Made by a program: the position numbers and the translations under genes. From positions 1 through 21,435 of the IMG/VR virus record IMGVR_UViG_3300005367_000127: 21,435 bases of DNA; one strand, 5' to 3'. The notes under the pieces were generated by a model. That model was not told the origin of the DNA and did no database searches. It saw nothing but the letters and a program-made list of their open reading frames with translations. Position 1 is the stretch's first letter; each line of letters opens with the position of its first letter. This stretch comes from a virus. Of the stretch, positions 3,107-19,786 are shown piece after piece.

Positions 3107-3393
3107 TCCAGGCCGTCGTCGCCTCGTCAGAGATCAATGAGGGCATCCTCGCCGGCACCGAGGAGGGCCAAGTGCCGATCAAGGTCGTCACCCTCACCGT
3201 GGATGCTCTCACCGTTGGCGAGATCATGGAGCCCGTTCGCATCCAGCTCGCCATGTCCAGTTCCATCGCCGCCCAGATCGCTGGGAACCTCAAGCGCAAA
3301 GCCAAGCAAGTCCCCAACCCCGCAGACCAACACCCAGAGGCCAGTACCTTGCCGGCCTCGGAAGTCACAGAGGAGACCATTACACCCATATGA
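3103..3393 (+). CDS. Hypothetical protein, 96 aa
   Basis: It starts at ATG 3103 overlapping the previous stop. Residues 24-65 (PIKVVTLTVDALTVGEIMEP... and on to NLKRKAKQ) look like two beta strands followed by an amphipathic helix. The last 30 residues are rich in Pro, Ser, Thr and Glu and are probably disordered. No family recognised. Its stop codon overlaps the ATG of the SSB-like gene (ATGA), so the two are probably made together. Confidence 0.7.
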   Translation: MIQAVVASSEINEGILAGTEEGQVPIKVVTLTVDALTVGEIMEPVRIQLAMSSSIAAQIAGNLKRKAKQVPNPADQHPEASTLPASEVTEETITPI

Positions 3394-4094
3394 GCAACTC
3401 AACCAGCATGGCCGACCTGCTTCAGCAGGCAGAAGACGCCGGATTCGGCGGGCTTCTCACCGATGGCGTTTACCAACTCCAAGTCGGTGCGGTCAATTTC
3501 AAGGCTCGCCAGGATGGCGGCGCCAAGCTCGGCATTCAGTTCAAGGCGGTGTCCGGTCCGAGCACGGGCAGCTCGTGGTACAACACCAACCTCATCCCCG
3601 GAGGCAAGGGCAATGGGTTCTTCTTCGAGCTGCTGAACGACCTCGGCATCCCGAATGAGCACATTCTCCAGCTCGCCCCGCAAGCGAACGACCTCAGCCA
3701 GTTGGTCGAGCACATCAAGCGAGTGACCACCGGCCAGGTGTTCACCGCCACCGTTGGCACCCGCACCTGGGGCACCAACAACGACAAGACGGATAACACG
3801 TTCAAGTTTGGTGGCGCTGCTGCCGCTCCCGCTGCGGCCGTGCCGGCTGCCGCTCCCGTCCCGGTGGTGGCGCCCGTCGCCGTCGCTCCCGTAGCGGTGG
3901 CTCCCGTAGCCGTCGCCCCGGTTGCGCCCGTCGCCTCGGTGGCGGAGGTCCCCGTAGCCGTGGCCCCGGTGGCCCCGGTGGCCCCGGTGGCCCCGGTGGC
4001 TCCCGTCGCTCCGGTAGCCGCTCCACTGCCCGTGGCGCCCATTGCGCTGGACCCCAACACCGGCCTTCCGCCCCGTCCGGGTGGCGGCATCTGA
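3390..4094 (+). CDS. Putative ssDNA-binding protein (DUF669-like) with Val-Ala-Pro tail
   Basis: A 234-residue protein in two parts. Residues 1-140 are a folded, strand-rich domain with aromatic and glycine-rich strands (GVYQLQVGAVNFKAR, GSSWYNTNLIPGGKGNGFFF, FTATVGTRTWGTNNDK) that resemble DUF669-type phage proteins thought to be OB-fold single-strand DNA-binding proteins. Residues 141-220 are almost only Ala, Val and Pro in VAP-type repeats, and the end is PPRPGGGI, not the acidic tip of bacterial SSB. The assignment rests on domain flavour plus context: the exonuclease and a Sak4-like ATPase lie just upstream, and Sak4 proteins work with an SSB. Not proven by a catalytic motif. Confidence 0.6.
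   Translation: MSNSTSMADLLQQAEDAGFGGLLTDGVYQLQVGAVNFKARQDGGAKLGIQFKAVSGPSTGSSWYNTNLIPGGKGNGFFFELLNDLGIPNEHILQLAPQANDLSQLVEHIKRVTTGQVFTATVGTRTWGTNNDKTDNTFKFGGAAAAPAAAVPAAAPVPVVAPVAVAPVAVAPVAVAPVAPVASVAEVPVAVAPVAPVAPVAPVAPVAPVAAPLPVAPIALDPNTGLPPRPGGGI
3810..4049 (+). repeat. Val-Ala-Pro coding repeat, with 9-bp perfect tandem core
   Basis: This stretch encodes the Ala/Val/Pro tail of the SSB-like protein. It is built from degenerate GTNGCNCCNGTN-type units; four perfect tandem copies of GTGGCCCCG lie at 3960-3995, bordered by variant copies with silent changes. Such units can gain or lose copies by slippage without breaking the frame. The protein segment should be extended and proline-rich, a flexible tether. 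Confidence 0.85.
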
Positions 4095-6737: not shown

Positions 6738-6750
6738 TACCTTTCCCGAG
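6738..6750 (+). promoter_or_regulatory. TACCTT box, 7 nt before an SD-less ATG
   Basis: TACCTT (6738-6743) followed by TCCCGAG sits directly before the ATG at 6751, which has no Shine-Dalgarno. It nearly repeats the TACCCT-TCCCGGC-ATG arrangement found on the other strand at 13834-13846. TACCTT fits the actinobacterial -10 consensus TANNNT, and a start 7 nt further on would put the transcript start at the codon itself (leaderless mRNA). No -35 box is evident. Confidence 0.4.
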
Positions 6751-7149
6751 ATGGACGCCGGGCTGTGGGCATTGCTAGGGACAGGGCTGATAGCCGGAGC
6801 TGCCGTCTATCGAGACCGTGTTCAGTTCCGCATCGCCAAAGAACAGCTCAACGCAACCCGAGAAGCTCGGGACATCGTGAAGGGTAACGGCCGGGGCAAC
6901 GTCATCGCCATGTTGAACACTGTTCAGGATCGTCAGCTCGCACAGGGCAAGACGCTCCTAGACCTTCAGACGTGGCAGTCGGCACACACCGCCGCCCACA
7001 CCGAGGCCGCTCTGCACGCTGCGGCCGGAATCAAGCAAGCGCACCAAGACAGTACCGATGCCCTTGAGCAAGCCCGCTCCCAACATGAAGGAACGCATGA
7101 TCTCAACGTCAACCTCACTGTGCAGCCTCCGGTGACCGAAGCTCCGTGA
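6751..7149 (+). CDS. Membrane-anchored coiled-coil protein, 132 aa
   Basis: Residues 4-19 (GLWALLGTGLIAGAAV) form one transmembrane segment, followed by a basic/charged stretch (YRDRVQFRIAKEQL) and then a long helical region with heptad-like spacing and many Ala, Gln and His to about residue 112. The C-terminus is polar. The design (N-terminal anchor plus cytoplasmic coil) is like several small phage membrane proteins encoded near lysis genes, such as DUF2746-type proteins, but I cannot assign it to a family. The start lies 15 nt after the primase stop, and the gene overlaps the next by GTGA. Confidence 0.7.
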   Translation: MDAGLWALLGTGLIAGAAVYRDRVQFRIAKEQLNATREARDIVKGNGRGNVIAMLNTVQDRQLAQGKTLLDLQTWQSAHTAAHTEAALHAAAGIKQAHQDSTDALEQARSQHEGTHDLNVNLTVQPPVTEAP

Positions 7150-8006
7150 GTCACTCTGACTACAACGTCGGGACAATGACGCACCTCGTCATTCCCGACA
7201 CGCAAGTCAAGCCCGGAGTTCCGACCGATCATCTCCTCTGGATCGGCAAGTACATCCTGGACATCAAGCCCGACAAGATCATCCACCTCGGAGACCACTG
7301 GGACTTCCCGAGCTTGAGCCTCTGGGACAAGGGCAAGAAGGCGATGGAGGGCCGCCGGATCTCCGAGGACATCAAGGCCGGCAACCGTGCGCTCCGCTTG
7401 CTCGATGAGCCAACGTACAAGTCCAACTGGGCGAAGACCGACCGTGGCACGGGCGAGCTGTACGAGCCCGAGAAGTGGCTCCTTCGGGGAAACCATGAGG
7501 ACCGCCTCCGCCGTGCGATTGAGGGTGATGCCACACTTGACGGCCTCCTCACGATGGACGCACTGGAGAGCCCCGGCTGGAACGTCGTGGACTTCCTCGT
7601 GCCGCAGTTCATCGACGGCATCGGGTACTGCCACTACTGGCCGAACGCTATGGGCAAGCCCATCGCCGGCATGATGGAGACACGCCTGAAGAACATCGGG
7701 CACAGCTTTGTCGCTGGGCACCAGCAGACACTTCAGGTGGGCATCCGCTTCATCCAGGGGCCTCGTGGCCCACTGAAGCAGCGTGGCCTCGTGGCCGGCG
7801 CATGCTACCTCCACGATGAGGACTACATGGGGCCGCAAGGCAACGCCCACTGGCGGGGCATCGTCGTGCTGCACGAGGTGAAGGACGGCGGATACGACCT
7901 CATGGAGGTCTCGCTCGACTACCTGTGCCGGCGCTACGAGGGCGTGCCCATCGAGCAGTTCATGTCCGAGAAGTACCCGGATCTCTCCTCAGCCCTCTAC
8001 CACTGA
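7146..8006 (+). CDS. Calcineurin-like metallophosphoesterase
   Basis: A 286-residue enzyme with the five metal-binding blocks of the calcineurin-like family in order: IPDTQV (Asp18; the usual DxH is DxQ, as in many phage members), HLGDHWD (Asp50), RGNHED (Asn116-His117), YCHYW (His163) and AGHQQT (His192). It should hydrolyse phosphomono- or diesters with two metals; the substrate (nucleotide, nucleic acid or protein) is unknown. I kept GTG at 7146, which overlaps the previous stop by GTGA; an in-frame ATG at 7176 would begin MTHLVIPDTQ and is equally plausible. It is complete and looks catalytically intact. Confidence 0.88.
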   Translation: MSHSDYNVGTMTHLVIPDTQVKPGVPTDHLLWIGKYILDIKPDKIIHLGDHWDFPSLSLWDKGKKAMEGRRISEDIKAGNRALRLLDEPTYKSNWAKTDRGTGELYEPEKWLLRGNHEDRLRRAIEGDATLDGLLTMDALESPGWNVVDFLVPQFIDGIGYCHYWPNAMGKPIAGMMETRLKNIGHSFVAGHQQTLQVGIRFIQGPRGPLKQRGLVAGACYLHDEDYMGPQGNAHWRGIVVLHEVKDGGYDLMEVSLDYLCRRYEGVPIEQFMSEKYPDLSSALYH

Positions 8007-8203: not shown

Positions 8204-8221
8204 TCCTCCGTAAGAACTCAC

Positions 8222-8247
8222 AGAGCCCCGGCTTCGGCCGGGGCTCT
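8222..8247 (+). terminator. Terminator between the convergent gene blocks
   Basis: AGAGCCCCGGC (8222-8232) pairs perfectly with GCCGGGGCTCT (8237-8247) around a TTCG tetraloop, an 11-bp stem. On the + strand it ends CTCTTTGCGTT, the same tail found after two - strand terminators. It sits 18 nt after the last + strand gene and 5 nt past the end of the last - strand gene, so it probably ends transcription from both sides, though neither side has a long U-tract. Confidence 0.85.
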
Positions 8248-8252
8248 TTGCG

Positions 8253-11200
8253 TTATGAGGTCTTCACGCCCTTGGCGTTCAGCGAGGTGATGGCCGCCTT
8301 GCGGCGCTGCGCTGCGGTCGTCGGCTTGGTGTGGGTCGTCTTGGTCTTCTTGGCCTTCGGGATGAGGCCAGCGTTGGTCAGCTCCTCCATCGTCGGCAGC
8401 TCCACGCCCGCATCGGTGAGCTTCTTCAGCTCGGCCTTCACGAGATCGAGCTGACGGTACTGCTCCGCCTTCTGGGCCTTGTCGTCATTGATCGTGACGT
8501 GGAGTCCCAGCATGGTGGTGAGCAGGCGAGCCCGCTCCGGGTCCCGGCCGTCCGAGTCCAGGATGTTTCGCTGGGTGCCCTTCTCCTTGGCGAACAGCGG
8601 CATGATGGCTGCGGCGAACCGAGCCCGAGTCGAGCCGGCGTCCGTCTTGATCGGAGCCCCGGAGAACAGGCTCTTGCCGAACGCCTCCTCGGCAGCGAAC
8701 TTGATGACCTCAATGGGGCCACCGCTCGGGATGTTGAGGGCGCCCTGGGCGACCTCTCCGAGGCCACCCTCGGGGCGCATGGACTTCGGGAGGAGCTGCT
8801 TGGCGCCCGGCACCATCGTGAGTGCCTGGAGGGCGGGCTCGATGGACTGCATGGCGGTGGCGAAGGGGGAGTCGATGCCCACGAGCTTGTTGCCAAACTT
8901 GATGTCACCCTGGTTCACAGCGAACTGCGGCACGAGATCCGAGGAGCCCTCACCGGAGTTGAGCCCGTCCAGGATGTGACCGAGCGCCCTGAACTTGCCC
9001 GGCTGCTTGACCATCTCGGACAGCATGAGGGGCGTGTTCTTCCGCATGTAGGTGTAGAAGCGGACGTAGCGCCGGATGCTGTTCTTCTCGAAGGGCGTCA
9101 GCTCGTTGTAGTCGAACAGGTACTTCTTCACCGAGCGGGCCGCCATGTTGGCGTCTCCGAGCTTGTCAAACTGGTGCGAGAAGTGCGCCAGGCGGGCGTT
9201 GGTCTCGACCACCTCGTTGAACTTGGCGCCGGCCTCCAGCACGGGATTGTGCCGGTCCAGCACGACGCTCTTGCCGTTCGGCTTGAGCGAGTCCAGGACT
9301 GGGTGCTTGCCACCGTTGAGGCGCTCCAGCGTGTGGTCGGCCATGTCGGCGGTGAAGAAGCCGGCGTCGATGGCGCCCGTGCGCCGGGCCTCTTGCACCT
9401 TCAGCACGTCACGAGGCGAGAGGTGCTCGGCCAGTGCGGCGTCAAACTCCTTGCCGATGGTGTGGTCGGACTCCTTGATGGCCTTCGCAATCGCCATCTG
9501 CATGCGTCCGGCCTCCACGTAGGCGCTGCCACGCACGCCGGCCAGCGTGTTGCTCAGCACGTTGCTGAGCCCGTTGCGGGCCGAGAAGCCAGTGCCGAAG
9601 ATGAACGGCACCGTGGCGTAGCCGGCCCAGAGGGAGCCCCACTTGTCGATGGCCTTGGTGAACGCCTTGGTGGCCTCGTCGCCTTCGAGGAAAGAGCCGA
9701 GGGCCTCCACGTCCTTCTGGAGCGATGGGTGGACATACGCCTTGTCGAAATACTTGGAGCTGATGCTCACGTAACCGAGCTTCTTTGCCTCCTCCTTGGC
9801 GTCCTTGCCGATCATCAGGAGCGGATTGCCGGAAGTGTCCTTGATCTCGGAGAAGCCCTTGACGACCTTCACTTGGGCAGCGGCGTAGGCCGCTTGCACG
9901 CCACGCTGGGCGGTGAGCTTCAGCGGATCATGCTCATAGAAGTTGAAGGTCTCCGGGTCGAGCCCGGCGGCCTTGATCTCGTCGGCGTAGTCCACCCGGA
10001 GCTTCTTCTCGGCCTCCAGGATCGGCAGCTCGGGATACAGCTCACGGCTCTTGGCCGAGCCTCCCTGCTTGAGCCCACGCTGGAGCCCCGTGGACTTGGC
10101 GCCCTGTGCGGACTCCTTGCCTCGGGCGGCCTCCAGGATGCTGCGGCCCTCCTCGGTGGTCTGGCGCTTCACGTAGTCCTTGTCCATGAGGTAGAACCCG
10201 TTACGAGCCTCCTTGGCCACGGCCTTGTCGGCGGCCCGGTTCGCCCGCTTCACGGCGCCGTTGCTCATCACCTTGTTGGCCCGCTTCTCAGTGGAGGCGG
10301 CCCGGCTCTCCAGCTTCTTGGCGGCCTCCTCCAGATCGTGGGCACGAGCCTCGGCGGCTCCCAGCGCCTTGCTCTCGGCGTGCGTCAGCGGACCCGGCCG
10401 ATTCATGCGGGCCTCTTCGATTGCGTGGGCGAGCCGCTCCTGCTGCTCGACGGCCTTCTCGGTCTGGCGGATGGCCCGGACCTCTTCCCAGCCGGCCTTG
10501 TCCTGCTCGTTCAGGAAACGGCCGGCAACCTTCTTGCCCATCTCGTGGTCCCGGATGATCTCGTGCCTGGTCTCAGGACCCGCTGTGGCCTCCACCTTGG
10601 CGCTCAGGTCGGCTCGGATGTCTCCGAGTGCCTGATGGGCCTTCTCAGCCTCCTCACGGGCCACACGAGCCGCTTCTCGGTGCTCAGGCAGCTTGGCCAT
10701 AGCAGCGTCAACCTCTTCGGCGTGGGCCTTGGCGAATGCCTTGGTCCGAACCTTGTCCAGCTCGCTGCTCTCCTTGGCCCCGGCGGCGACCGCCAGGTCC
10801 CTCGTGTGCTCCCGCAGCGGGCCGTCCAGCTCCTCCAGGAGCTTGGCCGCCGGCTCCCGGCCTTCGGAGCGAAGGGCCTCGGCAGTCTTGGCAACGTCTC
10901 CACCGATGTCGAGCGCCGGCAGGAACCTCTCCTCCAGCTCGGTGTTGGACACGCCGGCCTCTTTGGCGAGGGCCGTGATGCGGTGCGTGAAGGCGTCGGC
11001 CTCCTGGCCGCTGAAGGCGCGGCCGTGGGACAGCACCTCGGACACCTGGGCGGCGCCCTCCTTGGAGATCGTCTTGTCCACGATCACGTCGTTGTGCGGG
11101 CGGAACAGTCCGCCGGCCACCTTGCGAGCGCTCTGGCTCTTGTCGGCGAGGTAGCCGAGGGGCTTGCCGACCACGGCGTTGGTGGCGTGCTCCAGGACCC

Positions 11201-12158
11201 GGCCCGGCAGGCGGGCGGCCGTGGCCACCTCATCCGACACGCCAGCGCCGACACGGGCGGCATGGAGTGCATCCCCGGAGGCGAGCGTGAAGCCAGCGAA
11301 CCGGAGCCCGCCCTGGCCGGACGCCTCGGTGGCCCGCAGCACCCGCTGTGCATACTGCTCCTCGGGGGCGAGAGCGCCGATGGCCCGCTCGGACGGCAGC
11401 AGGAACTTGGCGACCCGGCCGGGCGCCGACTTGGCGAGGGCCGCCTCGGAGCTGCTCTCAATGCCCTGCTTCAGAATGGACCGCTCAGCGTCGGTCAGTC
11501 CGGCCTTGAGGCCTTGCTTCGCAACGGTGGCGGCGGCCTCTTCCCCGACATGCTCACCGATGGCCTTGAGGCCCTGCTCGGCCAGCGGCTTGGTGCCGGC
11601 GGAGATGTACGTGGTCGGGTCGAGCGCAATCGAGCCGACCGTATCGAAGAACCCAGCGAGCCGGCCTCCGCCGTTGGGATCTCGTCCCGTGGCCGAGCGG
11701 AGGTTGAGCTGCCCGTCCGGGGCGTGGCCTTCCAGTGCTCCGAAGGCATCGGAGAAGTCAGCGTGTTCGCCGAAGTCGAGCCCCGCAGCGCTGCCAGCCG
11801 CCTGGAGCGTCTGGAGCGCCGCCTGGCCGGGGCGGCCGAGGATGTCCATTGCGCCAACGAGGGCGCCCGTACCGACCCGCTTGAACCCGGCGAGGACGCT
11901 GGAGTCCTGCTTCGGAACCGCAAGCCCGGCGCCGGCCAGCATCTCGGGCGGGATGCCCGGCCCGTACTTGGCCAGGATGGCATCGGCCTGCTTCTGGTGG
12001 TCCCCGCCGAGCGCCCGCAGCTTCGCAATGTTCTGGACGAACTGCTTGGCCGCTACCGCCTTGCCGTCAACAACGACGGACTTGGCGGCCTCCCTGGAGC
12101 CGAAGCTCGTGGAGCCTGAAGAGGAGTCGGATACGGCGTCAGCGAATGAGCGGGGCAC
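8253..12158 (-). CDS. Large internal virion (DNA-ejection-type) protein, 1301 aa
   Basis: At 1301 residues this is the largest gene and the last of the virion block. The sequence is rich in Ala, Glu and Lys; residues ~470-680 are a run of charged helices with coiled-coil character. Near residues 1015-1040 it has YNELTPFEKNSIRRYVRFY followed by TYMRKNTP, a pattern I recall from large phage internal or 'polyprotein-like' virion proteins. A Gly/Ala/Phe segment at about 845-890 (WAGYATVPFIFGTGFSARNG) could interact with membrane. I see no transglycosylase or peptidase motif. Position after the tail genes and size fit a capsid-internal protein ejected with DNA, as in T7-like phages. It starts at GTG with no Shine-Dalgarno; a TACCCT box is 6 nt upstream. 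Confidence 0.78.
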   Translation of the reverse strand: MPRSFADAVSDSSSGSTSFGSREAAKSVVVDGKAVAAKQFVQNIAKLRALGGDHQKQADAILAKYGPGIPPEMLAGAGLAVPKQDSSVLAGFKRVGTGALVGAMDILGRPGQAALQTLQAAGSAAGLDFGEHADFSDAFGALEGHAPDGQLNLRSATGRDPNGGGRLAGFFDTVGSIALDPTTYISAGTKPLAEQGLKAIGEHVGEEAAATVAKQGLKAGLTDAERSILKQGIESSSEAALAKSAPGRVAKFLLPSERAIGALAPEEQYAQRVLRATEASGQGGLRFAGFTLASGDALHAARVGAGVSDEVATAARLPGRVLEHATNAVVGKPLGYLADKSQSARKVAGGLFRPHNDVIVDKTISKEGAAQVSEVLSHGRAFSGQEADAFTHRITALAKEAGVSNTELEERFLPALDIGGDVAKTAEALRSEGREPAAKLLEELDGPLREHTRDLAVAAGAKESSELDKVRTKAFAKAHAEEVDAAMAKLPEHREAARVAREEAEKAHQALGDIRADLSAKVEATAGPETRHEIIRDHEMGKKVAGRFLNEQDKAGWEEVRAIRQTEKAVEQQERLAHAIEEARMNRPGPLTHAESKALGAAEARAHDLEEAAKKLESRAASTEKRANKVMSNGAVKRANRAADKAVAKEARNGFYLMDKDYVKRQTTEEGRSILEAARGKESAQGAKSTGLQRGLKQGGSAKSRELYPELPILEAEKKLRVDYADEIKAAGLDPETFNFYEHDPLKLTAQRGVQAAYAAAQVKVVKGFSEIKDTSGNPLLMIGKDAKEEAKKLGYVSISSKYFDKAYVHPSLQKDVEALGSFLEGDEATKAFTKAIDKWGSLWAGYATVPFIFGTGFSARNGLSNVLSNTLAGVRGSAYVEAGRMQMAIAKAIKESDHTIGKEFDAALAEHLSPRDVLKVQEARRTGAIDAGFFTADMADHTLERLNGGKHPVLDSLKPNGKSVVLDRHNPVLEAGAKFNEVVETNARLAHFSHQFDKLGDANMAARSVKKYLFDYNELTPFEKNSIRRYVRFYTYMRKNTPLMLSEMVKQPGKFRALGHILDGLNSGEGSSDLVPQFAVNQGDIKFGNKLVGIDSPFATAMQSIEPALQALTMVPGAKQLLPKSMRPEGGLGEVAQGALNIPSGGPIEVIKFAAEEAFGKSLFSGAPIKTDAGSTRARFAAAIMPLFAKEKGTQRNILDSDGRDPERARLLTTMLGLHVTINDDKAQKAEQYRQLDLVKAELKKLTDAGVELPTMEELTNAGLIPKAKKTKTTHTKPTTAAQRRKAAITSLNAKGVKTS

Positions 12159-12170
12159 GCCAGCAGGGTA
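12159..12170 (-). promoter_or_regulatory. TACCCT box, 6 nt before the GTG of the 1301-aa gene
   Basis: On the - strand, CATACCCT is followed by GCTGGC and then GTG. TACCCT (complement of 12165-12170) fits the TANNNT -10 pattern and no ribosome site is present in the 23-nt gap after the previous stop. If it is a promoter, transcription would start at or next to the G of GTG, giving a leaderless message for this gene. Confidence 0.4.
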
Positions 12171-12181
12171 TGCTGTGTGAG

Positions 12182-13282
12182 TTACTTACCTGCGGGGTAA
12201 CGCTTGGAGGCAAGACGGGCGGCGTCCTTCTTGCTGATGCCCTTCATCACGAGCTGATCCGTGAGGGCCTTTCGAGCCTTGTCGGCCTTGGCGCTGGTGT
12301 TGACCGCCATTGCGTCAGCTCGCTGAGCGGACTCCATGCCAGCGATGCCCTGGAGCGCCTGGTCGGCAACGGCCGAGTTGGCGTTCAGCTCCTTGGCCTC
12401 GGGGATGGCCTTGACCAGCCCGGCCGCCTCGTCCTTGTTGGCGAACACGGGGGAGTACATGGCGATGAGGAGCTTGGCCACACCGAGCTGGTCCTCGCCC
12501 TCCACGTCACCGAGGGCGCCGGCCTTCGCCTGGGCGAGGACCTGGGCCTTGAACTCGTCCAGCGACATGCCCTGCTTGGCGGCGTTCAGCGTCATCTCCC
12601 GGCCCTTGGCGTAGGAGCTGGTGCCCTGGAGGGCGTTCACCTGCTCGGGCGTGGAGTTCAGCAGCGTGGCGGCGTCAGAGATGCCGAGCGGCTTGGACAT
12701 ATTCGCCGGCACGGTGGCATCAAACTGCTGGCGCTCCAGGTTGAACTTGTCCCGGTTGAGCCCGAGCACGTCCCGCTGGTACTGATTCTGGGCGTCACGG
12801 TCGGCCTTGTCGGCAAGGATCTGCTGCACGGCGAGCTGCGTGCGCTGCTGCATGATTGGCTTGGCGGCGTTCAGCATGGCGTAGTAGTTGCCGTTCGCAC
12901 TGGCCGAGGAGGCCCGCTGGGCGGCGGTCGCTGCGGCGCTGCGGCTGTGGTGGGCGCTCGCCTGGTCATAAACGGCGTTGGACTGCCCGGCGTCCTGGAC
13001 GGCCTGGGTCATCGGGGCGTTCACGAGAGCGGCCCGCTGGGCGGCGGCCTGGGCGGCCTGGGCCTTGGTGCCTCCGGCATCCGCCGTGACGGCCGGCGCC
13101 GAAGCTGCGGGAGCTGCCGGAGCTGGAGCTGCGGGCGGGGCCACTACGGCCGGCGTCCCGATGTCGGTGGGCGGGGCCGCTGCGGCGGCGTTCACGTCGG
13201 CCTTGGCCTGGGTGCCCGACTGGGCCATAGCGCTCAGAAGCGCCCGCTTCTGGTTCTCATCCTGGGTCGTGGGCACGATCAT
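12182..13282 (-). CDS. Ala/Gln-rich virion-associated protein, 366 aa
   Basis: Residues 33-75 are a low-complexity Ala/Pro linker; the rest is mainly helical, with many Ala and Gln (for example QRTQLAVQQILADKADRDAQ). It overlaps the preceding gene by ATGA and lies directly before the giant internal virion protein gene. Such mid-sized Ala/Gln-rich proteins between tail and internal-core genes in podoviruses are commonly internal virion proteins, but I do not recognise a family. The C-terminus (KKDAARLASKRYPAGK) is basic. Complete, with no signs of damage. Confidence 0.72.
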   Translation of the reverse strand: MIVPTTQDENQKRALLSAMAQSGTQAKADVNAAAAAPPTDIGTPAVVAPPAAPAPAAPAASAPAVTADAGGTKAQAAQAAAQRAALVNAPMTQAVQDAGQSNAVYDQASAHHSRSAAATAAQRASSASANGNYYAMLNAAKPIMQQRTQLAVQQILADKADRDAQNQYQRDVLGLNRDKFNLERQQFDATVPANMSKPLGISDAATLLNSTPEQVNALQGTSSYAKGREMTLNAAKQGMSLDEFKAQVLAQAKAGALGDVEGEDQLGVAKLLIAMYSPVFANKDEAAGLVKAIPEAKELNANSAVADQALQGIAGMESAQRADAMAVNTSAKADKARKALTDQLVMKGISKKDAARLASKRYPAGK

Positions 13283-13833
13283 CCAATCCCGTATTGAGCG
13301 TTCTCACGAGCTGCCCGGTCCTGGGCGTTTAACTCTTCCTCGGACTTCTGCCGGCGCCGGGACGCAATGCCCTGGGCAAGGCTGGTGCCAATGTCCATCT
13401 TCTGGTCTTCGATGTCATTGATGGCGCTCTGGTGCTCACGGTTGGTGTCCGTCTGGAACTGGGTCTGATCCTCCAGCCGGCGGCCCGAGCGGAACATTCC
13501 CTGGCTCTCGGCGTTCTCCGAGATGTTGCGGAGCCCGAGACGCATGCGGTCGGCGTAGACGGGCTTCATGTCCTCCACCCGGCCGTTCAGGCGGGCGATG
13601 CGGGAGGCGGCCTCGCCCTGGGCCTCAGCGTCGGTTACTCCCGTCTCCCGAAGGAAAGCGAGATAGGTCGGGTCGGTGTATGCCAGATTCCCGGCCGGGG
13701 CGGCGGTCGGCGTAACGGCGGGGGCCGGAGCCACCGCTGCCGCAATGCCGCTGTAGTCCCCGCCGCCAATAGAGGCCAGGCTCGACGTGGCGGGTATTCC
13801 TGCGGAGGAACTACGGAGCGGGGTGATTGCCAT
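13279..13833 (-). CDS. Hypothetical virion-associated protein, 184 aa
   Basis: Residues 1-47 are low-complexity (Ser, Gly, Ala, Pro). From residue 52 (YTDPTYLAFLRETGVTDAEA) to the end it is a charged, mostly helical protein rich in Arg, Glu and Gln, with GMFRSGRRLEDQTQFQTDTN in the middle. The gene overlaps the following 366-residue gene by ATGA, so the two products probably act together, likely as internal or tail-tip virion components. There is no Shine-Dalgarno; instead TACCCT lies 7 nt before the ATG. Confidence 0.7.
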   Translation of the reverse strand: MAITPLRSSSAGIPATSSLASIGGGDYSGIAAAVAPAPAVTPTAAPAGNLAYTDPTYLAFLRETGVTDAEAQGEAASRIARLNGRVEDMKPVYADRMRLGLRNISENAESQGMFRSGRRLEDQTQFQTDTNREHQSAINDIEDQKMDIGTSLAQGIASRRRQKSEEELNAQDRAARENAQYGIG

Positions 13834-13846
13834 GCCGGGAAGGGTA
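13834..13846 (-). promoter_or_regulatory. TACCCT box, 7 nt before an SD-less ATG
   Basis: On the - strand the order is TACCCT, TCCCGGC, ATG. It is nearly the same as the TACCTT-TCCCGAG-ATG arrangement on the + strand at 6738-6750. It lies in the 30-nt gap between two - strand genes and fits a TANNNT -10 element that would drive a leaderless transcript. Confidence 0.42.
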
Positions 13847-13863
13847 CGTCGGCCTGGAGAGTC

Positions 13864-14667
13864 TTATGCGGCTGGCAGAACTACGCACCCGGCGAAGCTG
13901 TCCGCAGCTCCACCGCCCGTGCCTCCGGGAAGGGAGTCGATGGCGTGGAGGCCCGGCGAGCTGAGCCCGGCCTCAAAGAGTCCCTGGTTGACCTGGGGTC
14001 CGGTCTCAACGGTACCCACCATCGTGGTGCCCGAGATGGTGGCGGACGCCATCGTGACCGTGGCGTTGAGGTTGTACTCGTCACGGACAACGTATAGCGC
14101 CGTGGCGTCACCGGCCGGCGTGGTGATGGAGCCATGCGAGACGGGGGTGGCGTTGTAGTAGAAGACGAGGCTGGAGTCCAGCGCACTCGACGGCCGGAGC
14201 ACGCCCGAGATGACGGCAACTTGGTGTGACGTGGCACCCGAGTAGCCATAGGTGGCAGCAGGCGTCAGGTCCGAGATGAAGGCCGCACGGATGGCGGCCG
14301 ACTTGAAGTTGTCGATGATCTCCAGCTCATCGAACACTCCGCCGACCCATGTGCCGGCAATGCCGGGTCCGGCCTTGGAGGCCCAGACGATCATCAGGTC
14401 GTCCGGGCCATACAGGGCGTAGTTGGTGAGAGCGCTGGGCACGAACGAGTTGCCAACACCCTGGGTATCCACCCACACGGGTGGCACCGAAGTGCCGGGG
14501 GTGACGCCCGAGCCGAGGGTGCAGAGCTTGTCCTCCAGCGCCCGGTCCCGCTCCTCCAGGAGCCGCACGGTGTCCGGGCTCATCTGGGTGCCTTCGGGCA
14601 TGAGGCTCTCGGCCACCTGGCGCCAGCGGTGCGGGAACTCCCAGCAGGGCTTGTTACTGACGGCCAC
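13864..14667 (-). CDS. Putative tail/head fibre-like virion protein, 267 aa
   Basis: The N-terminal third has a short helical motif LLEERDRALEDKLCTL (about 35-50), a style I recall from minor tail proteins of actinophages. The remainder is beta-strand-rich with Gly/Ser/Thr (VWASKAGPGIAGTWVGGVFD, NATVTMASATISGTTMVG) and ends in a Gly-rich, small-residue tail. This composition fits a fibre, decoration or receptor-binding protein; no enzyme motif is visible. GTG at 14667 is chosen because GAGGAG lies 5 nt upstream and the start follows the nozzle gene's stop by one base; the open frame extends 20 codons further into that gene. Confidence 0.65.
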   Translation of the reverse strand: MAVSNKPCWEFPHRWRQVAESLMPEGTQMSPDTVRLLEERDRALEDKLCTLGSGVTPGTSVPPVWVDTQGVGNSFVPSALTNYALYGPDDLMIVWASKAGPGIAGTWVGGVFDELEIIDNFKSAAIRAAFISDLTPAATYGYSGATSHQVAVISGVLRPSSALDSSLVFYYNATPVSHGSITTPAGDATALYVVRDEYNLNATVTMASATISGTTMVGTVETGPQVNQGLFEAGLSSPGLHAIDSLPGGTGGGAADSFAGCVVLPAA

Positions 14668-14668
14668 G

Positions 14669-16180
14669 TCAGCTCCTCGGGCTCTTGGGCCGCACGTCCA
14701 GCTCGACCACAATGTCCTGGAACGCAACGCCCTTGACGGCGCTGAGCTTCAGGCTGATGCCGCCGCCGAAGCGGGACTCGGGACCGAACAGGAACGTCTT
14801 GCGGGAGCGGACGCCGGAGGTAGTGGCGCTGGCGCCGGGCTCGCTCCAGGTTTGGGCGGTGGCCGCCAGGCCGTCCGGCATCTCCCACCGGGAGTGCGAG
14901 GTCGGCGTCACGGTGAAGCCGTTGTCGGTAGCGCTGCCGGTGGCCCACTTGGTGAAGTCCACCGTGACCTTGCGGACACGCACCTCGTTGCCCTCCTCCG
15001 CCCAGAACTCGGGGAAGGTGACCTCGGCGTCGAGCGGCGTCGTGGAGGCATCGCCCGGCTGGGCGTAGGTGTCGGACGTGAACGCCGGCCGGGAGAGGTC
15101 AATGCTCCAGATCCAGAAGTTCGGTTGCGAGGCCACGCCTCCGCCATCGGTGAGGTGGATGTGTCCCTGGCCGTCCGAGGTGGCGTAGACACTGATGTCC
15201 ACGCCGAAGGTGTGCCGGGTCCAGACGCCGTTGCGGTAGAGGCCACCCTTGTCGGTGAGTGGGAAGAGGATCACGGCCTCGTCCGGGCGGAACCCCTTGA
15301 CTACCTTCACGGTGGTGAGCCCGAGCTGGGCCGTGGTGTCGTTGAGGCGGAGGTACCGCTTCTCCTGCACCGTGCTGCCGTTGAACACGGCGGGGTAGTC
15401 GGCCGAGATCGGGACAAAGATGATCTGGTCCGAGCCCAGCAGGGCGGCACAGTCAGCGAAGGCGGTCCACGGGTGGACACCGCCGCCGGTTACCCGCCGA
15501 AGGGTGCCGGTGGTGGGCAGCCCGGTGAGGGCGTGCCACTCACCGTTCTGAGTGAGGACGCTGAACTGGTTGCGCTGGGCGAATCCGCCCGTGGCGGCGC
15601 CCGAGCTGTTCGGCACGTCAAACCAGTTGGTAGCTCCCCACGTCGTGAAGTCCCCGGCATCCGAGTAGTACACCCGAGTGAGAAATCCCGATGCGCCGGT
15701 CACCATCATGCGCTCGCCGTAGAGGGCGATGTCGTACCCTCCGGGAGAACCAGCCAGAGCGGTGAGCGTTCCTCCCACAAAGTCCAGCACGTAGCTCTTG
15801 TCCCCGAAGCTGGTGATGTAGAGGTCCTTGTTGCCGTACTCGAATCCCCGCACCTGCTGTGTGGGCGTGCTGGCGAGGGCGCCCGTGAACGAGGTCATCG
15901 CACCGGGAGCGGTGACCGTCGCTCGATACACGGTCGTGCCGACGATGACGGCGAGGTCGGGGTTGGTGCCCCGCCAGAACATGCCCATGACCACGCCGGT
16001 CGGCTTGCTACTAAATCCGAGGGACTTGACCCCTGCACGAGGACCGATGAGCCCGGTGTTGTAGACGACCATGTTCTTGGCCGAGAACGTGTTAGCCGGC
16101 GCCCGGTCGGGCGAGGTCTCCCCATAGTCTCCGCCGCTGAAGTCGGAATAGCGGATGCGCTGTGACTTGTCGGCGGGCAT
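14669..16180 (-). CDS. Tail nozzle / DNA stabilisation-like protein, 503 aa
   Basis: A 503-residue, strand-rich protein beginning MPADKSQRIRYSDFSGGDYG. The 'F.GG.....SP......A..aknm' opening and the repeating beta blades afterwards (VIVGTTVYRATV, DLYITSFGDKSYVLDF, GERMMVTGASGFLTRVYYSD, VFNGSTVQEKRYL) suggest a propeller-like nozzle, as in T7 gp12 or P22 gp10. These hubs close the tail channel and retain the packaged DNA. The start overlaps the adaptor gene's stop in a TGATG arrangement, consistent with adaptor and nozzle being made together. Family assignment is by layout and fold flavour, not by a catalytic motif. Confidence 0.7.
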   Translation of the reverse strand: MPADKSQRIRYSDFSGGDYGETSPDRAPANTFSAKNMVVYNTGLIGPRAGVKSLGFSSKPTGVVMGMFWRGTNPDLAVIVGTTVYRATVTAPGAMTSFTGALASTPTQQVRGFEYGNKDLYITSFGDKSYVLDFVGGTLTALAGSPGGYDIALYGERMMVTGASGFLTRVYYSDAGDFTTWGATNWFDVPNSSGAATGGFAQRNQFSVLTQNGEWHALTGLPTTGTLRRVTGGGVHPWTAFADCAALLGSDQIIFVPISADYPAVFNGSTVQEKRYLRLNDTTAQLGLTTVKVVKGFRPDEAVILFPLTDKGGLYRNGVWTRHTFGVDISVYATSDGQGHIHLTDGGGVASQPNFWIWSIDLSRPAFTSDTYAQPGDASTTPLDAEVTFPEFWAEEGNEVRVRKVTVDFTKWATGSATDNGFTVTPTSHSRWEMPDGLAATAQTWSEPGASATTSGVRSRKTFLFGPESRFGGGISLKLSAVKGVAFQDIVVELDVRPKSPRS

Positions 16181-16791
16181 CAGATCACAAAGTCCGAGCG
16201 GGTGCGGATGCTGATGGGCGAGGAGGTCCGGCGCATGTTGTCCTTGATGCGGTCAATCTGCTCCTTCTTCTCGATCTGGAACATGGAGAGGAGCGTGGAG
16301 TCGTCCAGCTTGCGAGCTGCTCGGGCTCCGGCGTAAGCGATGATGAGTCCGGGGTACGGGCAGAGGGGTACGTCGGTGGGCGAGGCCAGCGCCGTCTCCT
16401 TGCCGATGTAGCCGTGGGACATGGTGATGACGGCATTAGGCGTCGGCCCGAGCCGGATCTTCTCGGCGGAGATGGCGTACACATGCGGGCGTCCCACTGT
16501 GCCGTCGTACTGAATCAGGTCCCGGCGCTGGACGGCTTGGATGTCTCGGCCGTGGTCATCGGAGATCCAGACGGTACGGGTCCAGCCGGCGGGCGGGGTG
16601 TAGGCCTGCTGGGCGTTCACCGTTGGGAAGGTGGTCTCGATCTGGAGCCACGGCCAGTCGTAATCGGTGGCGATGTCTTCGAGCGCCGAATTGATGAGCG
16701 AGTCGAGGATGGTCGTGGTGAAGTGGGCGTCATCACTCGGGAATCCGAGATCGTTCAGAAGACGGGCTCGGAGTGCGGTGAGGTCAGCCAT
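16180..16791 (-). CDS. Head-to-tail adaptor (tail tubular A / gp6-like)
   Basis: A 203-residue protein whose first 70 residues (LRARLLNDLGFPSDDAHFTT, LINSALEDIATDYDWPWL) match the helical start of adaptor proteins such as T7 gp11-like tail tubular A: a short helix, a 'lN.a..di....dWpwl' segment and then strands. It probably forms the ring between portal and nozzle. Its gene lies directly upstream of the nozzle gene (TGATG overlap), the normal order. There is no Shine-Dalgarno; a TACCCT box is 6 nt before the ATG. Confidence 0.78.
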   Translation of the reverse strand: MADLTALRARLLNDLGFPSDDAHFTTTILDSLINSALEDIATDYDWPWLQIETTFPTVNAQQAYTPPAGWTRTVWISDDHGRDIQAVQRRDLIQYDGTVGRPHVYAISAEKIRLGPTPNAVITMSHGYIGKETALASPTDVPLCPYPGLIIAYAGARAARKLDDSTLLSMFQIEKKEQIDRIKDNMRRTSSPISIRTRSDFVI

Positions 16792-16803
16792 GCCCGAAGG
16801 GTA
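16792..16803 (-). promoter_or_regulatory. TACCCT box, 6 nt before the adaptor ATG
   Basis: On the - strand the order is CCTACCCT, TCGGGC, ATG. The six-base spacer would put +1 exactly at the A of ATG if TACCCT is a -10 element. It lies in the 38-nt gap after the 145-residue protein gene, and no ribosome site is visible. Confidence 0.42.
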
Positions 16804-16829
16804 GGCGGAGTCTTACGGAGCGGTGCGGC

Positions 16830-17267
16830 TCAGTAGTGGTGGCCCACATCTTTGCCGAGCGCCCAGTACGCCTTGCCGAGCATCTCCGCCATCTTCGCCT
16901 CAGAGGTCTGGGTGTTGGCCTTCTCGATGGCGTCGTTGTGACTGTCGATCTCCGCCAGGACTTGCTCGGCGGTCTTCTTCTTCATGTCGTGGGCCATGAG
17001 GTGGAGGATGAGCGAGCCGTCCAGCTTGAGGCCGGGCTTGCTGCGGCAGACGATCCGATACACGTCGTCATGCTCCAAGCGCTGAAGCACCCAGCGGCCA
17101 TCCTCACGGAAGAGGGCCAGGCGGGGATCTCCCTCCCAGCCGAGCGCCGGATCTCCGAGCTGGAGGCGGTCCAGGATCTCCTTGACTTCGGGGGCAATCC
17201 ACAACGTCTTGCCGTTGACGACTTCAGGGTGCTGGATCTGCTGACGGGAGAGAGTGACTTCACGCAT
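16830..17267 (-). CDS. Conserved-type phage protein of unknown function, 145 aa
   Basis: It begins MREVTLSRQQIQHPEVVNG. The central block LQLGDPALGWEGDPRLALF, followed by GRWVLQRLEHDDVYRIV, is of a kind I recall from other phages at this place between capsid and adaptor genes, without a known function. A helical, charged segment (KKKTAEQVLAEIDSHNDAIE) and an AYWALGKDVGHHY end follow. I start at ATG 17267: extending the frame to 17318 would read through the capsid-gene terminator and encode only hairpin sequence. No Shine-Dalgarno; TACCCT is 9 nt upstream. Confidence 0.75.
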   Translation of the reverse strand: MREVTLSRQQIQHPEVVNGKTLWIAPEVKEILDRLQLGDPALGWEGDPRLALFREDGRWVLQRLEHDDVYRIVCRSKPGLKLDGSLILHLMAHDMKKKTAEQVLAEIDSHNDAIEKANTQTSEAKMAEMLGKAYWALGKDVGHHY

Positions 17268-17282
17268 GAGGACCGGAGGGTA
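17268..17282 (-). promoter_or_regulatory. TACCCT box between the capsid terminator and the next ATG
   Basis: On the - strand TTCTACCCT is followed by CCGGTCCTC and ATG. It lies between a strong terminator (17292-17315) and the start codon, a place where restart of transcription would be needed. This gives positional support to reading TACCCT as a promoter -10 element. Spacing to the ATG is 9 nt, slightly longer than in the other copies. Confidence 0.45.
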
Positions 17283-17291
17283 GAACGGAAA

Positions 17292-17315
17292 GAGCCCGCC
17301 CTTGCGGGCGGGCTC
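17292..17315 (-). terminator. Terminator after the major capsid gene
   Basis: GAGCCCGCCC and GGGCGGGCTC form a perfect 10-bp stem with loop GCAA (- strand), followed by TTTCCGTTC. It starts 18 nt after the capsid stop codon. The tail CTCTTTCCGTT is one base different from those of the terminators at 8222 and 18701. It should limit read-through from the heavily expressed capsid gene into the adaptor and tail genes. Confidence 0.85.
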
Positions 17316-17333
17316 CATCAGGTAGCGAGTGGA

Positions 17334-18545
17334 TCAGGCTTCGGTGATCCCGGTCATAACGCCGTGGGCGTTACGCTTGTCGGTGCAAAGCTCGTGGTAC
17401 TTGAACAGCGTTGCCTCGTAGGCATCCACGCCCGAGACCCGGCTGAGAATGGCGCCGTCCTCATCCATGAACTCCCAGTCCGACATCTCGTGCTGCTTGA
17501 GGTGGGGCAGGCCCAGCACGAACGCAAAGCCCGTGGGGATGTCCCGGTCCCAAGTCAGAGGGATGTCGCCGCCGCCGGCCGAAACCGACAGGGACTTGAA
17601 CCCGCCCTTGAGGTCCAACGAGTTGGTGTCGTTAAACCGCTTCTGGGAGGTGAGGGTATTGCTGTAGGCCCGGCGCACGCCGTCCGTGGTGATGATGTAG
17701 CCGGGGATCTCCCCGCCTTCGATACCGATGGTGTCGACGGCCAACTCGAACACGTTGTCCGAGATGGTGCCCACGGTGGCCCGCACGTAGCTGACCCAAG
17801 TGGGGTTGACGGTGGGGTCCACGTTGTGCAGCGTGCCGGAGGCCGCCACGATGGTCTGGAGCCCGGTCAATTCCTTCTGGGAAGTGGTGGCTCCGCCAGC
17901 GCCCGAACGGGAGATGAAGTCAGTGGCGGCCGTGGTCACGACTGCGCCCGAAATCACCATCGTCTTGGCGGCACGGTTGATGCTCTGGATGGTGCGGGCG
18001 GAGAAGGCCGAGGTGGGTGTGGCCACCGGGCCGGCGTCGATCACCATGCCGACCTCGAACTGCCGAAGCTGCACGAGCGTGGTGGTGGCCGCAAGCACGA
18101 GCGTGGTGCTGGCCGTGGTGACACCACAACCGGCGATCACGCCGTCCGAGGTGCCGGCGATCTGCCGGTTCACGTCACGCTTGAGGTCGTTCGTGACGCC
18201 CTTGGACTCGGACTCGACTGCACGAGTGAACGAGCCCTTGTCGGACTTCATGGCCCGGATCACGGGACCGTTGAGCTGGATGCGGCCGTAGTTGTACCGC
18301 AACGGCACTCGCTCCTCGGCGTAGCTCTGGTTACCGGCGGTGGGCAAGGTGCCACCTTCAGCTCGGGCGCCTACACCCGAGTTGCGGCTCACATGCAGCG
18401 ACAGCACCGCACGACGACCTTCGATGTCGTCCGAGTTCTTGTCGATCTGGTTGAGCAAGTTGAACGTGTTGTTGACCTGCTCACGAATTGTGGGCAGGTA
18501 GTCTTCCTTCAGCGCCGAGTCGGCGGTGGCGAGGGACAAAGGCAT
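17334..18545 (-). CDS. Major capsid protein (HK97/P22-type fold)
   Basis: A 403-residue coat protein. The N-terminal arm and helix (REQVNNTFNLLNQIDKNSDD), the charged 'E-loop' region (GTLPTAGNQSYAEERVPLRY) and the long helix KGSFTRAVESESKGVTNDLK are typical of phage coat proteins. Residues ~141-213 are a Thr/Val/Ala-rich strand block (TLVLAATTTLVQLRQFEVGM, then TIQSINRAAKTMVISGAVVT) that looks like an inserted beta domain. It follows the scaffold gene and a small protein gene, and is followed by a terminator, as expected for high expression. The ribosome site AAAGGGG is 6 nt before the ATG and overlaps a CCCTTGAAAGGG near-palindrome that could modulate translation. Confidence 0.85.
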   Translation of the reverse strand: MPLSLATADSALKEDYLPTIREQVNNTFNLLNQIDKNSDDIEGRRAVLSLHVSRNSGVGARAEGGTLPTAGNQSYAEERVPLRYNYGRIQLNGPVIRAMKSDKGSFTRAVESESKGVTNDLKRDVNRQIAGTSDGVIAGCGVTTASTTLVLAATTTLVQLRQFEVGMVIDAGPVATPTSAFSARTIQSINRAAKTMVISGAVVTTAATDFISRSGAGGATTSQKELTGLQTIVAASGTLHNVDPTVNPTWVSYVRATVGTISDNVFELAVDTIGIEGGEIPGYIITTDGVRRAYSNTLTSQKRFNDTNSLDLKGGFKSLSVSAGGGDIPLTWDRDIPTGFAFVLGLPHLKQHEMSDWEFMDEDGAILSRVSGVDAYEATLFKYHELCTDKRNAHGVMTGITEA

Positions 18546-18700
18546 TGCGATCCCCTTTCAAGGGTGGGTCGGATAGCGGAACTGGGTGGTGCCAGCGCTG
18601 CCTCCACCTCCAGGGTTTCGAGCGGCTCTCCGGGATCAACCCGGCTGGACATCTGAAGGAAAGCACATACCCGAGGGGGGTATGCGGGCCGCAACGCAAA
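18546..18700 (-). promoter_or_regulatory. Capsid gene leader with palindrome at 18665-18683
   Basis: This non-coding stretch lies between a terminator and the capsid gene, so a promoter should be here. It contains a 7+7 palindrome, CATACCC-GAGGG-GGGTATG (18665-18683, + strand reading), which could be an operator or a hairpin and which on the - strand includes GCATACCC, like the start of the box at 12165. Smaller palindromes lie at 18630-18644 (CCGGG/CCCGG) and over the ribosome site. I could not find a convincing -35/-10 pair; TATCCG and TATGTG are weak candidates. Confidence 0.35.
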
Positions 18701-18726
18701 GAGCCCCGGCCAGCAGGCCGGGGCTC
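18701..18726 (-). terminator. Terminator after the scaffold-linked small gene
   Basis: GAGCCCCGGCC and GGCCGGGGCTC form a perfect 11-bp stem with a 4-nt loop, followed on the - strand by TTTGCGTTGC. It begins 17 nt after the stop codon of the 77-residue gene. It separates portal-scaffold transcription from the capsid gene. Stem and tail are nearly the same as those of the terminator at 8222-8247. Confidence 0.85.
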
Positions 18727-18743
18727 CGTGAGTTCTTACGTTG

Positions 18744-18977
18744 CTACTTCAGGATGGTGCGCTTCTTGACCATTCCCTTCGGGATATGGAGGATGTGCGC
18801 CCACGCTCCCGTAGCTGGGTCGTGGCTCCCGGCGATCACGTAATGGCGCTTGTTGGCGCCCTTGATCTCCCAGCCGACAGTGGTGACCTCTCGTGGTTCC
18901 GAGGCAATGTCTTCGGTGCGGACCCACTCGTCCACATCCCCGAAGGCATCTTCCCAGATGACCTCCACCCGTTGCAT
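18744..18977 (-). CDS. Small phage protein of unknown function, 77 aa
   Basis: It starts with a TGATG overlap on the scaffold stop codon. The sequence MQRVEVIWEDAFGDVDEWVR... TVGWEIKGANKRHYVIAGS... HILHIPKGMVKKRTIL follows a pattern (WeDa, then a TVGW strand, a YVIA strand and a final IPkGmVk) that I recall from many short phage proteins of unknown role, often near structural genes. It looks like a small beta-barrel. Coupling to the scaffold suggests a function in head assembly. The open frame runs 15 codons further up but overlaps the scaffold gene without a better start. Confidence 0.75.
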   Translation of the reverse strand: MQRVEVIWEDAFGDVDEWVRTEDIASEPREVTTVGWEIKGANKRHYVIAGSHDPATGAWAHILHIPKGMVKKRTILK

Positions 18978-19786
18978 CAGTCTTTGATCCGGGAGAGCAT
19001 GCTCTTGCGAGCGCCGGCCCACGTCTTATCGTGCCCGCCGGCCGGGTCGGCCGGAGCGCCGCTGCCGCCAGCGACCTTCGGGAATACGGCGCCCTTGAGC
19101 GCTGCCTCTTCCACAAACTTGTCGATCACGGCTTGCTTCTCCGCTTCGATAGCGGCGTGGGCGGCCTTCACGTCACCGTCGAACTGCTGGCTGGCCCGCA
19201 GCAGAACGGTCTCATACTCCCTCGTGCCCGGCTCGTAGCCGAGGTCGGTGGTCTCCTTGATGACGGCTTGGACCGCATCCTCCTGGGCCTTGGCCTCGGC
19301 AGCTGCGGTGGAGCTGGCGGTCTCACGGTCAGAGACGTACTTGTCGATGAAAGCCTGCAACTCCTCGGCGGTCTTCGGGATCTCGACCTCGGGAGTGGGC
19401 TCCGGGGTGACGGGCTCCGGGGTCTCCTCGTCGGGCGCCAGGATGCGCTCGGCAAGGTCCTTCATGCGCTGGGCGGCTTCGCCGATGGTCTCCGGGTTGC
19501 CGATGTCCCGCACGAGGCTCATCAGGACCTCACGCTCGGGCTCGCTGAACGGAGCGAACGCTTCCTCATAGGGCTTGAGGCTGGTACGGCGCTCGGCTGC
19601 CTCTCGGCGGATCTTCTCGACGTATGCACGCTCGAACGTGTCGGTGGCCTCGTCATCAAACGGGTCCACCTCGGGCTCTACAACCGGCTCAACCACGGGC
19701 TCGACAGCAGGAGAAACCTCCGGCGTCGTGACCGGCTCCACAACGGGATCGGCGGCGGGTGCAGAGGGTTCTACTGGATCAGGCAT
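18977..19786 (-). CDS. Capsid scaffolding/assembly protein
   Basis: A 269-residue, strongly acidic and Pro/Val/Glu-rich protein. Residues 1-45 are repeats of the type VEPV (PAVEPVVEPVVEPEVDPF), then charged helices (TFERAYVEKIRREAAERRTS and others) and a helical C-terminus ending AGARKSMLSRIKD, a basic tip that in scaffolds binds the coat. Location between portal and capsid genes is the normal place of the scaffold. AGGAG and AAGGG stand just before the ATG. No protease motif is seen, so it is probably released or cut by other means. Confidence 0.8.
   Translation of the reverse strand: MPDPVEPSAPAADPVVEPVTTPEVSPAVEPVVEPVVEPEVDPFDDEATDTFERAYVEKIRREAAERRTSLKPYEEAFAPFSEPEREVLMSLVRDIGNPETIGEAAQRMKDLAERILAPDEETPEPVTPEPTPEVEIPKTAEELQAFIDKYVSDRETASSTAAAEAKAQEDAVQAVIKETTDLGYEPGTREYETVLLRASQQFDGDVKAAHAAIEAEKQAVIDKFVEEAALKGAVFPKVAGGSGAPADPAGGHDKTWAGARKSMLSRIKD

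Follow-up and report, generated by a model that had tools for sequence, protein, structure and literature searches.

The virion genes of an uncultured virus are very probably expressed in part from leaderless promoters, since the short boxes that stand immediately before five of its gene starts have the properties of host sigma-A-type -10 elements; on this reading, five genes would be translated from leaderless mRNAs and the virion block would be cut into separately transcribed units. The window analysed is the entire record, a contig of 21,435 bases. As judged by sequence comparison, the predicted promoters are real and of an ordinary kind, TANNNT leaderless genes being standard in Actinobacteria, but are used unusually systematically. 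A phage lineage that expresses part of its virion genes from predicted leaderless promoters at fixed junctions, with its capsid and scaffold genes never boxed, would have a simple and testable route to virion-protein ratios without a single polycistronic late operon, and recognition of such starts aids correct start calling in uncultured actinophages.

The right part of the window, on the - strand, is the virion block (Table 1), which past the capsid gene runs through connector and tail genes to a tail-fibre-like protein. The left part, on the + strand, encodes a helicase fragment, a PD-(D/E)XK nuclease, an AAA protein and a primase-helicase-like protein. The phage collection contained no relative of the window at the DNA level.

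Table 1. Genes, boxes and terminator considered in the window, with the positions noted for the boxes of Microbacterium phage Shocker (SD, Shine-Dalgarno site).
Feature	Position	Strand	Remarks
Portal gene	right end of virion block	-	cut off by record end
Gene in scaffold position	18977..19786	-	SD-led, no box
Major capsid protein gene	17334..18545	-	SD-led, no box
Intrinsic terminator	17289..17315	-	just past capsid gene, ahead of the 17277 box
TACCCT, -10 box	17277..17282	-	9 nt before ATG 17267; expected leader 0-3 nt
Gene	16830-17267	-	ATG 17267, no SD
TACCCT, -10 box	16798..16803	-	6 nt before ATG 16791
Tail protein gene	16180-16791	-	ATG 16791, no SD
Gene	13864..14667	-	SD-led, no box
TACCCT, -10 box	13841..13846	-	7 nt before ATG 13833
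Gene	13279-13833	-	ATG 13833, no SD
TACCCT, -10 box	12165..12170	-	6 nt before GTG 12158
Tail fibre-like gene, 1301 aa	8253-12158	-	GTG 12158, no SD
TACCTT, fifth box	6738..6743	+	7 nt before ATG 6751
Small gene, hydrophobic N terminus	6751-7149	+	ATG 6751
Shocker (L132), two sets of boxes	550, 3582, 16907, 18521, 21224		

Ahead of the starts at 12158, 13833, 16791 and 17267, all of them SD-less, the original prediction had placed TACCCT at distances of 6, 7, 6 and 9 nt, and all of these coordinates and distances hold, with none of the motifs GGAG, GAGG, AGGA or AAGG occurring in the SD zone of the four genes. The starts at 14667, 18545 and 19786, described at the same time as having a ribosome site and no box, were confirmed in both respects, and a fifth box (TACCTT, before the + strand start at 6751) that had been missed brings the SD-less box starts in the window to five out of five. 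The starts at 13282 and 16180, which overlap or abut the upstream stop, have neither an SD motif nor a box. TACCCT occurs eight times in the window against 2.9 copies expected, a number reached in none of 100 shuffles, and the remaining four copies do not lie upstream of gene starts. It is the hexamer most shared at offsets 4-10 (four of the 21 window starts); when the best of all hexamers was taken in each of 20,000 random ATG/GTG sets, at least four of 21 starts were reached with p = 0.006. For the looser pattern TANNNT at 5-9 nt before the start, five of the 21 starts are positive, where the background rate is 0.6 % (p about 2e-7). The centres of the boxes are CCC in four cases and CCT in one, and the test for an extended -10 element found TGn before none of the five.

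Comparison with relatives gives the main support for reading the boxes as promoters. Related capsid genes were found at 43 loci, with 44-61 % identity over the full or near-full length and 74 % for one short fragment, and these fall into 36 clusters including the window, i.e. 35 related clusters. Genes were defined as ORFs conserved between clusters and their starts were picked blind to the motif, yielding 371 starts outside the window. In 32 of them, the end of a TANNNT lies at a distance of exactly 6 nt from the start, compared with approximately 2.2 at each other offset (binomial p about 1e-26), and the peak is one base sharp. As many as 29 of the 32 boxes stand at SD-less starts (Fisher p 3e-6), and among 5808 internal in-frame start-like codons only 16 (0.28 %) have a TANNNT. 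An extended -10 (TGn) precedes 17 of the 32 boxes against a background of 4.8 %, most of the aligned sites having T at -15 and G at -14. The absence of a shared -35 element, noted originally, extends to the relatives, in which no hexamer is enriched at spacers 12-23, just as no sigma-70 consensus pair occurs in positions 12000-19000 of the window; TGn enrichment with no -35 is what would be expected of -10-driven promoters. TANNNT also has a smaller peak of 10 cases at offset 11; several of these are accounted for by the T/A that extended -10 elements have at -17/-16, and others belong to SD genes. In the relatives' boxes, A is the preferred middle base of the centre and A or C the preferred last one, and the exact hexamer TACCCT is found at offset 5-9 before none of the 371 starts. 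Thus, conservation in related phages, which had been proposed as a check and the lack of which was to count as refutation, proved to be of the -10 pattern and its spacing, and not of the literal TACCCT, so that the promoter reading survives while a TACCCT-specific reading is weakened.

The same conclusion emerges gene by gene, in a count over all clusters that admitted offsets of 5-7 and as many as six candidate starts. A box was found at homologs of the portal gene in 11 of 30 clusters, of gene 16830 in 12 of 32, of gene 16180 in five of 31, of gene 13279 in five of nine, and of the tail fibre gene in two of six. By the same procedure, no box was found before any capsid homolog (0/35 clusters, 25 with an SD) or scaffold homolog (0/30, 26 with an SD). 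In the nearest relative (L014), whose capsid and portal are 61 and 65 % identical, respectively, to those of the window, all four orthologous starts have a box at 6 nt (TATACT, TAGACT, TAACAT and TAGACT), including TAGACT at the orthologs of both 12158 and 16791, and its portal gene is boxed at 6 nt too. In two of these four boxes, among them that of the 12158 ortholog, and also in the portal box, the first bases are those of the upstream stop codon, and part of their TA could therefore be coincidence. Across the relatives, TANNNT and its spacing are kept at the same genes and the TACCCT letters are not, with the choice between SD and leaderless starts tending to go with the gene. The claim that the boxes are leaderless promoters is in this way strongly supported by comparison, i.e., by the 6-nt peak, the anticorrelation with SD sites, the extended -10, the recurrence at the same junctions and the SD-gene controls. 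Within the same relative, three successive genes of 194-195 aa (13857-15615), whose products weakly resemble the N-terminal part of the 13864-14667 product, occupy the place of that window gene.

A terminator marks the boundary between the capsid gene and the first of the boxed - strand genes. It consists of a 10-bp G+C stem, a tetraloop and a T run (-27.3 kcal/mol, z -5.35), and the 17277 TACCCT begins about 10 nt beyond its stem, which bears out the earlier remark that one copy lies just past a strong terminator. In eight related clusters, a terminator-like hairpin likewise directly precedes the TANNNT box of the 16830 homolog, and in L007, L009, L014, L015 and L027 a terminator followed by a box comes right after the capsid stop. 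L013 has TATACT past the terminator and then a leader with an SD, and there, to go by its sequence, the promoter is retained and the leaderless state is lost.

According to the mechanism proposed, the scaffold and capsid genes would be expressed on a leadered transcript with SD sites, the strong terminator past the capsid gene would stop most of that transcript, and the connector and tail genes would restart from their own leaderless promoters. Transcription of genes 8253-12158, 13279-13833, 16180-16791 and 16830-17267, together with 6751-7149 on the + strand, would start on the start codon or within about 3 nt of it. A TANNNT with +1 seven bases past it is the -10 of actinobacterial sigma-A promoters, and at some 12 nt before a start it signifies a leaderless gene (PMC3160421, PMC3898074); the simplest account is that the host polymerase begins at the start codon. 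The start sites themselves and leaderless translation are predictions from spacing, statistics and positional conservation as well as from sequence. Because the capsid and scaffold genes are never boxed and a terminator parts them from the next genes, abundant and scarce virion proteins would probably be set separately. Tuning of virion-protein ratios by internal leaderless promoters, as originally suggested, is plausible and fits the capsid terminator and the boxless capsid and scaffold genes. The points that speak against leaderless expression are the lack of TGn at the window boxes, the single box at 9 nt and the failure of the hexamer to be conserved.

Systems already described make such promoters familiar. 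Leaderless (TA-led) genes of Actinobacteria are known to be marked by TANNNT some 12 nt ahead of their starts (Zheng et al. 2011, PMC3160421), and the window agrees with that class in motif, distance, absence of SD sites and high G+C, its boxes ending 6, 7, 6 and 7 nt before the start (and one at 9); those genes, however, are cellular, whereas the present ones belong to a phage virion block. Leaderless TANNNT promoters have been mapped in Mycobacterium tuberculosis, where they consist of a -10 without a -35, and missing -35 elements are normal in actinobacterial promoters (Cortes et al. 2013, PMC3898074). The likeness to that bacterium lies in the -10 alone, the start at the codon, which is predicted in the present case, and the abundant growth genes that stay SD-led, although TGn is found at 7 % of promoters in M. 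tuberculosis against 17/32 in the relatives and 0/5 in the window. Among phages, the cluster O mycobacteriophages (Corndog) have predicted leaderless SigA promoters, PL1, PR2 and PL2, which resemble the present ones in belonging to actinophages and in having the first start-codon base as predicted +1 (PMC4351075). Those three came from a sigma-70 search that included the -35, whereas here the promoters are repeated within a virion block, are without a -35 and are conserved over a distant phage group. A literature search of partial coverage found no conserved pattern of leaderless starts inside a virion block.

The chief alternative, which is unlikely, is that TACCCT marks a phage-specific class of late promoter, read by host polymerase with the help of a phage co-factor or by a sigma factor that the phage encodes, so that the units are switched together. 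The letters CCC, present in all four TACCCT boxes, occur in 0/32 relative sites; the chance of four equal centres is about 1.4e-3 if they are drawn from the relatives' pool and 1.5e-5 if drawn according to composition; TGn is missing from all five window boxes; and boxes are more alike within than between phages (p = 0.02), although that may merely reflect host preference. Microbacterium phage Shocker (MW507126), a distant relative with a known host and a capsid only 32 % identical, resembles the window in having TACCCT or TAGGAT 6-7 nt before starts, but it has TACCCT outside the late block (genes 2 and 10, at 6 nt) and TAGGAT within it (genes 30, 31 and 34, at 6-7 nt), which hints that promoter classes within one phage can share letters. 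Each of Shocker's two box sets has its own common extended letters, TGTGCTACCCTAAC for genes 2 and 10 and TAGGAT for 30, 31 and 34. Against a separate class stand the deviating box at 6751, the match of TACCCT to plain TANNNT, the variation of the relatives' centres at the same junctions, and the lack of a sigma-70 region 4 domain (PF04545) in the window, itself a 21-kb fragment. A phage-specific factor is not needed, since only TANNNT and not the TACCCT letters are conserved, and as a general explanation it is not supported, the relatives carrying ordinary TANNNT or TGnTANNNT boxes; for this phage, whose boxes have CCC in common and no TGn, it keeps a small probability. A dedicated late class of the form TACC(C/T)T, devoid of TGn and -35 and read by host polymerase only with a phage factor, by which the virion genes would come on together after capsid termination, is similarly improbable.

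It is very improbable that the box acts in the mRNA as a translation signal, standing in for an SD by pairing with rRNA or by binding a ribosomal protein; it does occupy the SD position and exclude the SD, but conservation is limited to T1, A2 and T6, with the centre free to vary, which base pairing would not yield, and the TGn enrichment, the 6-nt spacing and the occurrence of boxes directly after terminators fit promoter geometry instead. That a hexamer recurs merely by chance in the gaps between genes, aided by TAA/TAG stops near the next start, is hardly credible either, for although the family-wise p from the window alone is only 0.006 and a stop codon opens some of the relatives' boxes, the peak persists with 29 of the 32 sites once boxes beginning with a called upstream stop are removed, and the capsid and scaffold controls are 0/65.

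The leaderless promoters favoured here are unevenly distributed among the relatives, about 20 of the 35 related clusters having no box in the genes examined. On the capsid tree, the trait requires four changes compared with 11.6 when shuffled (0/500 as low); on one side, 12 of 13 clusters are boxed, and a set of 15 has none. Such clustering makes the trait a property of lineages, a dependence that probably acts through hosts, and leaderless usage, which only some clades of the group show, may mark the host lineage. The large boxless sister part, for the genes examined, includes L011, L012, L017, L019-L024, L026, L032, L034, L036-L040 and L042. The closest capsids of annotated phages are 31-35 % identical and come from 13 records, 11 with a host and two environmental ones without; since all the recorded hosts (11/13 records) are Arthrobacter, Microbacterium or Cellulosimicrobium, sequence relationship makes an actinobacterium the likely host of the window phage. 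Searches with the primase and the phosphoesterase gave no pointer to the host. A scan of the genome collection found capsid homologs in only two MAG contigs, L042 and L043, which are labelled Campbellbacteria and Rhodobacterales and are probably misbinned phage contigs.

Several further features of the window were recorded. The best annotated relatives (46-48 %) of the phosphoesterase (7146-8006, + strand) come from phages that infect proteobacteria, among them Pseudomonas and Vibrio, which sets it apart from the virion genes; gene exchange is likely. The gene at 3390-4094 closes with a low-complexity Ala-Pro-Val repeat tail (3820-4094, + strand) made of 9-nt tandem units. Rfam gave nothing above gathering thresholds. 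Stretches of TAAGACTC or TAAGTAACTC occur at gene ends on the - strand (13859-13866, 16808-16815 and about 12187), and were rejected as a -35 because their distances to the three boxes differ (12, 4 and 8 nt, respectively). Two near-identical terminators, at 8209-8254 (+) and 18693-18740 (-), lie in opposite orientation 10 kb apart and have the common flank CGTAAGAACTCAC-GAGCCCCGGC...GGCCGGGGCTCTTTGCGTT; the TAAGACTC/TAAGTAACTC stretches are related to the TAAGAACTC of these repeated terminators and are commoner than chance.
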